The notes under the pieces are model-generated. The model saw only the letters and a list, made by a program, of their open reading frames with translations. It did no database searches and had not been told where the DNA came from. DNA of 64,000 nt from Pirellula sp. (GTDB taxonomy: Bacteria; Planctomycetota; Planctomycetia; Pirellulales; Pirellulaceae). A program made the translations under genes and the position numbers. This document shows positions 5,431 to 51,442 of this stretch, one piece after another (within the stretch, counting starts at the first letter, position 1; each line of letters begins with the position of its first letter). Where the stretch lies: positions 1 through 64,000 of the forward strand of contig JAJTID010000022.1 in the NCBI GenBank assembly GCA_021300155.1, in the 5' to 3' direction.

Positions 5431-5513
5431 GGGCCGTTGGCCCTATTGGACAATCTAAGGAACGATTACCCAGGCCTTCCGCCTGGGCTAGGTAAACATA
5501 GGGCCTTTGGCCC
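5431..5513 (+). repeat. Right 83-bp REP cluster, inverted copy
   Basis: The hairpins GGGCC-GTT-GGCCC (5431-5443), CCCAGGC-CTTCC-GCCTGGG (5469-5487) and GGGCC-TTT-GGCCC (5501-5513) are the reverse complement of the left cluster in reverse order. A fourth small hairpin, GGCC-CGAA-GGCC (5528-5539), lies just outside, 10 bp before the stop of the convergent DUF1501 gene, and may serve as its terminator. Confidence 0.9.
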
Positions 5514-5549
5514 GGAAAAACAAATCCGGCCCGAAGGCCCTTCAGTGTC

Positions 5550-25392: not shown

Positions 25393-25459
25393 ACGGTCCG
25401 TTTGGCAGCCTCTCTATCGCCCTCGATGGCGAACTGCCAAACGGACCGTTGGTTTTTTT
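25393..25459 (+). terminator. Strong intrinsic terminator of the oxidoreductase gene
   Basis: ACGGTCCGTTTGGCAG (25393-25408) and its exact complement (25434-25449) form a perfect 16-bp stem. The loop contains a smaller TCGCC/GGCGA stem. Seven T residues (25453-25459) follow. The structure starts about 50 bp after the stop codon. Confidence 0.92.
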
Positions 25460-48564: not shown

Positions 48565-49059
48565 TTACTTTTTTCCCAGACGCCGTTTGTTTTCGAAGAA
48601 TTCGGTCAACAGTTGGCCACATTCTTTCGCGAGGATGCCACCAAAAACTTCGCAGCGATGATTGAGCCGTGGGTCGGTGAGAAGATGGAAGAGTGATTCT
48701 ACTGCGCCGGCTTTCGTATCGATGGCACCATAAAACACTGTTGGGATTCGGGATTGTAGGATTGCCCCCGCGCACATCGGGCAAGGTTCCAGCGTGACAT
48801 AGAGGGAGCAGTCTTCGAGTCGCCAAGATTTCAACTGCGCCGCGGCTTGTGTGATTGCAATCATCTCTGCATGCGCGGTCGGATCCGCTAATTGTTCTCG
48901 TTGATTGTAAGCAGCTGCGATGATTTGATGCTTATGTACAATCAAAGCACCGACCGGCACCTCGTCTTCGATGGCCGCTTGCTGAGCGAGCTCGATCGCT
49001 CGCCGCATAAAGTGCTCGCTTGCGAACGGAAGAAGTTCATCGTCGCTATTTTTTATCAA
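48565..49059 (-). CDS. tadA: tRNA-specific adenosine deaminase
   Basis: TadA deaminates A34 of tRNA-Arg(ACG) to inosine in the anticodon wobble position. The zinc site is complete: His63-Ala-Glu65 in TAHAEMIAI, and Cys93 and Cys96 in EPCPMCAGA. The C-terminal part ([24 protein letters not shown]) is also typical. The start is at 49059, giving 164 residues. It overlaps the upstream membrane-protein gene by 14 bases, so the two are co-transcribed with greA. Confidence 0.93.
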
Positions 49060-49732
49060 GAGCTTCTTCCATGACTTTCATGAAGACTTGCGAGACGCTT
49101 TGATTGAATTCTTCTTTGGGGATCTCGAAGCGATCATTCATTGCCTTCATTCGTCGCATGAACTCTCGCAATTGTTCCGCCGTGATGCCATCTCTCGGTT
49201 TCAAGCGGCCCGACTTCTGCTCTTTGATGCAGACATTTTGTGTTCCGAATTCCATGTCTTGCATCGACAGTTTGCCCAAGGATGCGCAATGGAACCATCG
49301 ATCGCATTCAAAGGAGAATTCGGCCTTTTCTTCAGGCGACATTTCCGACGCTTGGGCGATGAGATTTAGGTTCTCGACGGCTCCCCATTGAAGGATAGCA
49401 CTTTCAGTCAATCGAATTCCTAAACGCGAAAGTTGCCGGGTCGTGAGTTCTTCACGTTCCATCGATTCGGAAATCTCATTGAGTTTCGCGATGATGATCT
49501 GGCGATCGTTCTGACCGAGCGAGGATTGTTCTACCCATGGAATGAGTTGTTCACGGACGGATCTAGCGGCGGTCTGTCCCTGTTTTCCCATGAGCATCAT
49601 GGACATGTAGACGAAGAAAATGCTGATGCCTACAAGTCCGAAAATTCCAATCACGACGCAAGCGGGCCCGAGGGAAACATCTTTTTCTGGGTAACTCGGA
49701 TTGGTCGCACGGTTATTGGTCATATTGTCCAA
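49046..49732 (-). CDS. Single-pass membrane protein, unknown function
   Basis: No family was recognised. The 228 residues have a short polar N-terminus and one hydrophobic helix ([26 protein letters not shown], residues 24-50). A helical hydrophilic domain follows ([39 protein letters not shown] and on), with three cysteines in [13 protein letters not shown] and NVCIKE. It lies between greA and tadA on one strand, with starts touching the greA stop, so it is part of that operon, but nothing indicates a role in transcription or tRNA modification. Confidence 0.75.
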
Positions 49733-50209
49733 CTAGTCTTCAAATTCGATAGAAAGAACTTCATATTTCAGTGTTCCGCGAGGAGCAGCAATTTCAACGG
49801 TCTCTCCAACTTTTTTCCCCATAATGGCTGCACCGAAAGGGCTGCTGGAGAGGATTTTTCCATTCTCATAGTCTTCGTCGCCTGCCCCGACCAACGTGTA
49901 GACTTCCTCATCCCCCCAGGAGTCCTTGAGCCTGACTTTGGCGCCAAAAACGACCTGATCGCGTGGTAGGGTCGAGGTGTCGACGATATGTGCTTTACTG
50001 AGTTTGGATTTGAGCGAGTTGATTTTCGCTTGCATCATGCCTTGGTTTTCTCGCTGGGCATGATATTCCGCGTTCTCTTTCAGATCCCCTTCGGCGCGTG
50101 CTTCAGCGATCTTCTCTGAAATGAGAGGCATCTCGACCGTTTCCAGGCGTTCGATTTCAGCCTTCATTCGGTTGTAACCCTCTCGGGTCATGGAAACGAA
50201 ATCCGTCAT
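49733..50209 (-). CDS. greA: Transcription elongation factor GreA/GreB
   Basis: The 158-residue Gre factor rescues backtracked RNA polymerase by stimulating transcript cleavage. The N-terminal coiled coil holds the acidic tip ([20 protein letters not shown]), and the C-terminal FKBP-like domain follows ([34 protein letters not shown]...[20 protein letters not shown]). The start has GGAG 10 nt upstream at 50221-50224. Its leader holds an intrinsic terminator 20-70 bp before the start, and the loop of this terminator is complementary to the ribosome site. Confidence 0.93.
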
Positions 50210-50231
50210 GGTTCAAAATCTCCGCAAAAGC

Positions 50232-50278
50232 AAAAAAAGATGCGACTTGAATCCCCGGGCGGAGATAAAAGTCGCATC
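50232..50278 (-). terminator. Intrinsic terminator in the greA leader, with anti-Shine-Dalgarno loop
   Basis: On the minus strand, GATGCGACTT and AAGTCGCATC (50239-50278) form a perfect 10-bp stem. The loop folds as ATCTCC-GCCC-GGGGAT, and seven T residues follow (50232-50238). It sits upstream of greA and would stop transcription before the gene. The loop contains ATCTCCGC, exactly complementary to GCGGAGAT (50218-50225), which holds the greA ribosome binding site. Confidence 0.85.
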
Positions 50279-50497
50279 ATGACTCACACATTGTAAGCAT
50301 TTTATTCCAGCTTGAACCACAGCATCTTTCCCGCCGCAACGAAAAAGTCAACCCCAAGAGCTCGACGAAAGCCTAGTGACACGCTGGTCTACGGTGCCTC
50401 TTGAGAGCGCCCAACTGTCGGAAAATTCTCTCGGGATTATTCGAAAGGGCTCGGATATAATCGGTCACTCTTCCTTGGAGTATCCGAATACCAGATG

Positions 50498-50528
50498 GTT
50501 CTCCAAGCCAGAGTCCGTTCTCCAAGCC
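50498..50528 (+). repeat. 12-bp direct repeat upstream of the thioredoxin gene
   Basis: GTTCTCCAAGCC occurs at 50498-50509 and again at 50517-50528, 19 bp apart. An inverted CTTGGAG lies upstream near 50474, making a partial dyad. The repeat is about 80 bp from the thioredoxin start and in the region shared with the divergent greA promoter. The rest of the 396-bp gap, from 50279 to 50605, holds no recognisable gene. Confidence 0.5.
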
Positions 50529-50605
50529 GGAAGTCTTTGTGCCATCCCAGTGGGAGGAAGATTGATTTGAATACGATTTTGACTTCAAAGTGGTACGCTC
50601 GAACG

Positions 50606-51442
50606 ATGTTCCTTCGATTCCGATGCCTCGTGGCTCTGGCGGTTTGCGGCGCCGTATGTGATAGCTATCACAATTGTTGTGTTGATGCTGCCGTTGTCGG
50701 CGGGCAAGAGGGGGGGAATGCAAGCCGAGGGGAGGCCGCGTCGAAGGAAGCGGCGGAGTTGTTGCCGATCTTCCATTCGGTGGAAGATGGCTTGGTGGCC
50801 TCTGAAGAACTCGATCGGCCCGTTGTGGTGTTGTTCACTGCGAGTTGGTGTGGTCCATGCAAGGAATTGACGAGTGCCTTAAAGGAAAGATTTGAGGCAG
50901 AGCTTCTCAAGCCATTGGCGAACAGCCTTTTTCGAAGCTGGGTTATTGTCAAGGTGGACATCGATGAACGCAAAGATTTAGCGGACCGATTTGAGATTCG
51001 AGGTGTGCCCGCGATGCGTGTTCTAGACTTGAACGAAAAAGTACTGGCGAAAACAGAAGGTTATGATTCTTATGCATCGTTTGCCGAGTGGCTTGATAAT
51101 TGCAAAAGAACCTCGACACCCCATGTTCAACGCTCGCTTCAAAACAGCACCGACCTATCGGAGGTTATGGCGGAGCTCGTTGTTCTCCTTGGAGATCGCA
51201 ATGTGGAAATCCGTGAACAGGCGATGCATCGGTTATCGAGCGATAGAAAATTAACGCAACGGAACATCCTCGAGGTGATGCAAGGCGGAAGCCTAGCGCA
51301 GCGACTTTGCTCCTTGGAGATCTTGAGGAAGTGGGGAGTCGATGTTTCAGGTTTCGATCCATGGAAGCCAGAAACGTTTCAGGATGCGCGAATCGCCAAA
51401 TTGCGAGATGCGGTCGTCCAAGATGGAAACGGTAAGGACTAA
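50606..51442 (+). CDS. Exported thioredoxin-fold protein
   Basis: The 278-residue protein has a signal peptide (LRFRCLVALAVCGAVCDSY), a thioredoxin domain with the redox motif WCGPC at residues 81-85, the usual cis-Pro loop (GVPAM) and an alpha-helical C-terminal domain of about 100 residues (ILEVMQGGSLAQRLCSLEILRKWG). The N-terminal part of the mature protein is rich in Ala and Glu. The gene precedes exbD by 36 bp. Domain and redox motif are clear; the substrate is unknown. The ATG at 50606 gives the signal peptide; an open frame runs from 50495. Confidence 0.88.
   Translation: MFLRFRCLVALAVCGAVCDSYHNCCVDAAVVGGQEGGNASRGEAASKEAAELLPIFHSVEDGLVASEELDRPVVVLFTASWCGPCKELTSALKERFEAELLKPLANSLFRSWVIVKVDIDERKDLADRFEIRGVPAMRVLDLNEKVLAKTEGYDSYASFAEWLDNCKRTSTPHVQRSLQNSTDLSEVMAELVVLLGDRNVEIREQAMHRLSSDRKLTQRNILEVMQGGSLAQRLCSLEILRKWGVDVSGFDPWKPETFQDARIAKLRDAVVQDGNGKD

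Follow-up and report, generated by a model that had tools for sequence, protein, structure and literature searches.

The greA Locus and Its Intergenic Region

The window analysed here, the whole 64,000-nucleotide stretch of a Pirellula sp. contig, carries greA on its minus strand (positions 49733..50209), with the ATG at 50209 and the end of the gene at 49733. The encoded protein of 158 aa matches NF001261 (170.4 bits; cutoff 167) and the Pfam domains GreA_GreB_N and GreA_GreB, and the genome contains a single match to this GreA (E <= 0.001). The upstream neighbour, located at 50495-51442 and divergent from greA, encodes a thioredoxin domain. On the other side, a 228 aa open frame (49046-49732, minus strand) starts right behind the stop codon of greA and overlaps a tadA-like frame (48565-49059) at the latter's end. 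A comparison of this 228 aa frame with Pfam and NCBIfam gave no match at E <= 0.001.

Reading along the greA strand, the intergenic region presents, in this order, the pair TTGACT-16-AAAGAT, 45 nt, a 40-nt hairpin, a T7 tract, the ribosome binding site GCGGAGAT, and the ATG. This ribosome binding site (50218..50225, minus strand) was assigned from the sequence, its GGAG being 10 nt 5' of the ATG.

A Predicted Terminator Hairpin Ahead of greA

The initial annotation had described a 10-bp stem followed by T7, on the same strand and 5' of greA, and this arrangement was confirmed at 50278-50232. The predicted terminator hairpin (50239..50278, minus strand) consists of a 10-bp outer stem with arms GATGCGACTT and AAGTCGCATC, a 2x2 internal loop, a 6-bp inner helix, and a GCCC loop, corresponding to the RNA fold ((((((((((..((((((....))))))..)))))))))) at -23.4 kcal/mol. 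Right behind it lies the T7 tract (50232..50238, minus strand), five T columns of which are invariant across 26 same-genus sequences. The hairpin ends 29 nt and the T tract 22 nt 5' of the ATG, and folding of the 104-nt greA leader gave a z of -5.2.

In a scan of both strands of the window for hairpins with T-rich tails, the greA hairpin was the third by energy, and hits at -20 or below appeared at 0.011 per 200 nt of strand. The two stronger ones, at 25393-25449 (plus) and 5501-5540 (minus), lie just past the 3' ends of open frames, and by this position they would be ordinary 3' terminators. A generic terminator scan missed the greA hairpin, because its 10-bp stem encloses a 20-nt loop and the scan permits loops of 3-8 nt. 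A search of the region 49600-50700 against Rfam gave no match at E <= 1.

A Predicted Promoter Upstream of the Hairpin

A predicted -35 element, TTGACT (50346..50351, minus strand), aligns with TTGACA in most of the genus and is followed, after a 16-nt spacer, by a predicted -10 element, AAAGAT (50324..50329, minus strand), a weak match to TATAAT whose position is kept in the genus; from these we infer a transcription start near 50317. Relatives were scored for an exact TTGACA, TTTACA, or TTGACT separated by 16-18 nt from NANNNT, at most 150 nt upstream of a hairpin with dG <= -12. Such a pair was present in 24 of the 26 leaders of the genus and in 65 of 95 others, the three -35 hexamers having been picked after the sequences had been viewed; the reverse strand gave 0 in both sets, and the shuffled expectation was 0.4 for the genus and 1.1 for the others. 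A plain consensus promoter score reached a mean of 8.7 of 12, versus 7.5 for both controls, and a generic promoter scan returned none at its cut-off. The initial annotation had named the absence of a promoter upstream of 50278 as one point that would speak against it; a predicted and conserved one is located there. Its proposal that transcripts can end ahead of greA gains support as a possibility from this promoter together with the predicted terminator on the gene's own strand.

Between the -10 element and the hairpin, the median distance was 45 nt for leaders of the genus, compared with 24 nt for those of other genera, corresponding to a median pre-hairpin RNA of 39 nt (24 genus leaders) and 18.5 nt (62 others). 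This RNA showed no excess of pairing with the 5' arm of the hairpin, the only arm considered (mean z of 0.04 in the 24 genus leaders and 0.41 in the 62 others, after excluding three leaders with fewer than 8 nt before the hairpin), so a classic antiterminator pairing with the 5' arm appears unlikely.

Conservation of the Hairpin in Relatives

For the analysis of relatives, a hairpin was called when it lay in the last 200 nt of a leader with dG <= -15 and the 8 positions behind it included 5 T or more. The set for the family Pirellulaceae comprised 140 hand-chosen greA leaders from many genera, including 26 of the same genus, and their shared ancestry means that they do not count as independent. 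They were drawn from the listed matches among the 210 of 222 genomes with a GreA match, a list that did not extend to the weakest ones, plus G003 and G012. At the expected position of the start codon, 13 of 100 leaders showed a codon other than ATG, seven of them GTG or TTG and six shifted by one codon.

A hairpin with a T-rich tail was found on the greA strand in 112 of these 140 leaders and on the opposite strand in 17. All 26 same-genus leaders carried it, versus 1 on the opposite strand, and so did 86 of the 114 family leaders outside the genus, versus 16. Lowering the demand to a dG of -9 gave 126 leaders on the greA strand and 39 on the opposite one; conversely, 28 of the 140 had no hairpin at dG <= -15, and 14 had none at -9. 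Some of the family hits lie more than 100 nt from the greA start, and surely part of those at weak energy or large distance are not terminators. In other families of the order, 12 of 19 leaders presented a hairpin, versus 2 of 19 on the opposite strand (dG <= -15), some of them again more than 100 nt from the start; these 19 came from 23 genomes outside the family, after dropping G044 and G058 (weak matches), G047 (no match), and G050 (near a contig end). Among distant loci, mostly from Proteobacteria, the figure was 8 of 69, versus 2 of 69 on the opposite strand (dG <= -15), the 69 having been retained from 80 loci after removal of L171-L180 (nearest planctomycete, mostly in the family set) and L185 (a match at a contig edge). 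Within this distant group, the Psychrobacter loci L198, L208, and L218 showed a strong similar hairpin ending 19 nt 5' of greA and followed by the tail ATTGGTTT instead of a T run. Beyond the class, many genomes of planctomycetes had their GreA match inside a reading frame of roughly 640-1400 aa, for the most part 700-1000 (for instance, G331:C106:15565-16017), which suggests a fusion of GreA with a long additional portion; genes of this kind would require a different leader.

In the alignment of the 26 same-genus leaders (25 of them distinct), the 16-pair structure formed in 88.6% of cells, compared with 82.9% in shuffled alignments, and sliding one side of the helix by 1 to 3 columns left 35 to 47% paired. 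Nine of the 16 pairs showed changes on both sides, a number equalled by 1 of 500 shuffles, and the covariation score of the 16-bp helix was reached by none of the 500, although the shuffles ignore relatedness; the number of further pair types was less clear (41 of 500). The alignment thus points to compensatory changes in the hairpin and to an inner helix conserved in the genus. Judged from open frames only, this genome and its sister G024 have a divergent upstream neighbour and other genomes a tandem one, with promoter and hairpin retained despite this change, so that the element can most probably be assigned to greA.

Sequence of the Stem and Its Occurrence Elsewhere

The outer stem of the genus reads GCG[A/G]C...GTCGC in nearly all leaders, and in other genera the 3' arm frequently ends in AGGT or AGGTCG. 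In these other genera, AGGT was present in 62 of 86 hairpins, versus 9 of 39 hairpins on the opposite strand and 7 of 142 other hairpins of the window, and GGTCG in 36 of 86, versus 1 of 39 and 2 of 142, respectively. Since the motif was chosen post hoc and the window hairpins are mostly not terminators, this enrichment is a lead and not a clean test. The genus itself showed AGGT in 10 and GGTCG in 13 of 26 leaders, and the other families of the order showed each of them in 1 of 14.

Several searches addressed whether such stems occur away from greA. The pattern GACCTC-N-GAGGTCG-TTTTT was sought in 16 genomes selected for look-alike leaders; 9 of them had it, and at greA only. The looser GCGAC-N-GTCGC-T5 gave 108 rows in 27 genus genomes, versus 77 for the reversed control and with rows sliding along one T run counted more than once; 17 of them were at greA, and outside greA the pattern occurred at about the control rate, with some good hairpins. 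Hairpins of the form GCGACC...GGTCGC followed by T5 were seen away from greA at G011:C827:4199-4227, G011:C751:47092-47122, G013:C446:5299-5331, G005:C93:292-317, G019:C135:48446-48470, and G022:C3:38122-38154.

A covariance model derived from the leaders of the genus recovered the one of greA in 26 of the 27 genomes of the genus (the exception, G004, is without a greA match too), and in 13 of the 26 it also matched the antisense copy of the greA hairpin. Searched through 60 genomes under stricter filters and with the best 78 candidates per genome, the model gave a single weak match outside greA (E 0.039, in G036) and missed the greA leaders of other genera. In addition, ATGCGAC-N-GTCGCAT occurs at one other site of the genome (G000:C30:97349-97374), with a short loop. 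The idea of an abundant generic terminator repeat was rejected because of this single further site and the near exclusivity of the genus model for greA leaders among the candidates scored. We conclude that the stem sequence of the greA hairpin appears constrained, yet similar stems are also present elsewhere in the genus genomes.

The Proposed Anti-Shine-Dalgarno Pairing

The initial annotation had further proposed that the loop of the hairpin acts as an anti-Shine-Dalgarno sequence. The complementarity was as described, ATCTCCGC (50259..50266, minus strand) pairing in full with GCGGAGAT, from 50266-50259 to 50225-50218. In shuffles of the inner segment, a complementary run of at least 8 appeared in 0.2% of 20,000 cases, so that the match is unusual when considered by itself, but it was spotted after reading 64 kb. 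The assumption of an open loop did not hold, since the segment folds as AUCUCC-GCCC-GGGGAU, a 6-bp inner helix past the 2x2 internal loop, and the first six bases of ATCTCCGC constitute the 5' strand of this helix.

The match of 8 nt is complete in this genome only, and the sister genome G024 has 7 plus one G-U. When each leader's own ribosome site was compared with swapped ones in the genus, pairing was slightly better with the leader's own site (p 0.03 both for energy and for run length), and 14 genus representatives gave p 0.04 for duplex energy and 0.14 for run length; without this genome (G000) and G024, the genus values became 0.12 for energy and 0.28 for run length, and the 71 leaders of other genera gave no signal (p 0.28 and 0.50). 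In the genus alignment, where the ribosome site is poorly aligned, the pairs between loop and ribosome site formed in 48.9% of cells versus 47.7% in shuffles, and the pairing slid by -3, -2, or -1 columns outperformed the proposed register. Cells changed on both sides exceeded all 500 shuffles (26 versus 17.1), being the one measure of five to do so. As for energy, the outer stem alone (-11.9) and the duplex (-12.5) add up to -24.4 before any pseudoknot cost, compared with -30.1 for the nested fold. The anti-Shine-Dalgarno design was therefore rejected on permutation, covariation, and energy tests, and a block of translation by this pairing, as initially suggested, is not conserved, is energetically disfavoured, and would use bases of a conserved inner helix. 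Most likely, the match arose by chance, helped perhaps by a purine-rich 3' arm that resembles a ribosome site.

Discussion

The explanation that we favour, with a probability of about 70%, is that the leader of greA works as a GraL-type attenuator. Comparison among relatives supports the hairpin, T tract, promoter, their conservation, and a constraint on the stem sequence, whereas termination as such, a read-through fraction, and feedback by GreA are inferred, the last from E. coli. Transcription would start about 39 nt 5' of the hairpin at a sigma-70-like promoter, and the intrinsic terminator would stop a fraction of the transcripts, releasing them as short leader RNAs some 85 nt long, so that the greA mRNA would arise by read-through alone. 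Synthesis of greA should indeed depend on read-through because the gap of 22 nt between the T tract and the ATG could hardly fit a second promoter. As no antiterminator was detected, read-through is probably governed by RNA polymerase together with its associated factors. If E. coli is taken as a guide, GreA may favour termination and in this way keep its own level constant, a feedback that the initial annotation had raised as a possibility and that would fit what is described for that organism.

Passages of the E. coli study (PMC6829880) report that GreA autoregulation acts in cis through the GraL leader, that it requires catalytically active GreA, which increases termination in vivo, and that the effect was seen in vivo and not in vitro. 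According to the same passages, swapping the arms with the pairing kept abolished autoregulation in log phase and left some repression in late phase, and autoregulation was independent of the sequence past the U tail of the terminator. The authors left both direct and indirect models open and proposed an additional unknown factor (PMC6829880).

The closest competitor overlaps the attenuator just described and differs in the effector: the leader terminator could be tuned by a general cue (NusA, NusG, nucleotide supply, or temperature) or set a constant greA level. We regard it as a real contender, somewhat short of even odds. In its favour are the strong hairpin and unbroken T tract without an antiterminator signal, no sequence feature marks GreA as the effector, and similar stems precede T runs elsewhere in the genus. 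Against it, the genus model recovers greA leaders and one weak match besides (best 78 candidates per genome), and a plain terminator would not require arms as constrained in sequence as these. A bolder reading would make the leader terminator a sequence-specific sensor of GreA activity across distant phyla, working without an antiterminator through the behaviour of polymerase and GreA at the hairpin. Here, the arm sequence and not pairing alone would do the sensing, as hinted at by the E. coli arm swap, and the stem base GACC...GGUC(G) immediately 5' of the U tract is common to GraL and many family leaders. The near absence of the motif in the other families of the order and the similar stems elsewhere in the genus make this reading doubtful.

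The remaining readings are less probable still. The short RNA could act chiefly in trans as a small RNA, attenuation being its production route, in line with the conserved stem sequence and with passages reporting that GraL acts in trans too (PMC6829880); loop and pre-hairpin sequences differ among relatives, however, and we find this unlikely. Slightly less credible is a hairpin that serves as terminator of the upstream gene or as a 5' stabiliser of the greA mRNA, without attenuation. Several genus members have a tandem frame ending about 150 nt upstream, and hairpins at the 5' end can stabilise an mRNA, but here the neighbour is divergent, a predicted promoter lies between it and the hairpin, and the T tract is kept. 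The least probable of all, by a narrow step, is the dual attenuator of the initial annotation, in which the read-through RNA would form a pseudoknot, the hairpin loop masking the ribosome site and blocking translation as well. It draws on the exact 8-nt complementarity with its near copy in G024, the duplex energies in the genus representatives, and the excess of cells changed on both sides; against it stand the inner helix on the same bases, the more stable nested fold, and a pairing no better than shuffled ones, whose weak signal is absent in other genera and fades without this genome and its sister. In E. coli, moreover, autoregulation did not need the region past the terminator.

For E. 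coli, PMC6829880 leaves unsettled the route by which GreA restrains its own production via the leader. A compact leader terminator in another phylum, with a constrained stem, offers natural variants to locate the bases that matter, and the hairpin, as a predicted leader terminator kept across much of the family like the one of E. coli greA, suggests that attenuation in greA leaders reaches the Planctomycetes.

Compared with known anti-Shine-Dalgarno hairpins and ribosome-site pseudoknots, the leader has in common an upstream segment that is antisense to the ribosome site, and differs in that this segment is not conserved and is part of another helix. Published attenuator predictions also include attenuators before greA, the greA/rnk family being ranked seventh, and reportedly show a clear antiterminator in each case, whereas none was detected here; the main text of that paper contains no mention of planctomycet- or pirellula. 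Likewise, among the listed matches on planctomycete greA leaders, start-site maps, or small-RNA maps, titles and abstract openings, which are weak evidence, named no such leader. The initial statement that the arrangement is not described can hold for the dual design only, and not for a terminator in a greA leader.

With GraL (RF01769; PMC6829880), the resemblance is one of organisation, homology not being established because the RF01769 model matched 0 of 40 relatives and, among 14 control genomes, E. coli only (best 65 candidates per genome), and the genus model scored 4.5 bits (E 5.5) on the E. coli leader, so that there is no covariance-model match in either direction. The two also differ in the RNA before the hairpin, about 39 nt here, and in the distance from the hairpin end to the start codon, 29 nt here and 102 nt in E. 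coli. Our method recovered the E. coli hairpin as GCTGACCTGGG...CCCGGGTCGGT-ATTTTTTT. Its stem base, GACC...GGUCG before the U tract, resembles that of many family leaders, and greA is in both cases divergent from its upstream neighbour (dacB in E. coli). The stretch ahead of the terminator, 19 nt in E. coli in the passages of PMC6829880, is close to the median of 18.5 nt in other genera of the family. As predictions, both traits of the GraL type are found in the family, namely an intrinsic terminator on the same strand in the greA 5' UTR (112 of 140 leaders) and an upstream promoter with a very short pre-hairpin leader (24 of 26 and 65 of 95), with promoter, terminator hairpin, U tract, and greA in the same order as that described in passages on GraL (PMC6829880).
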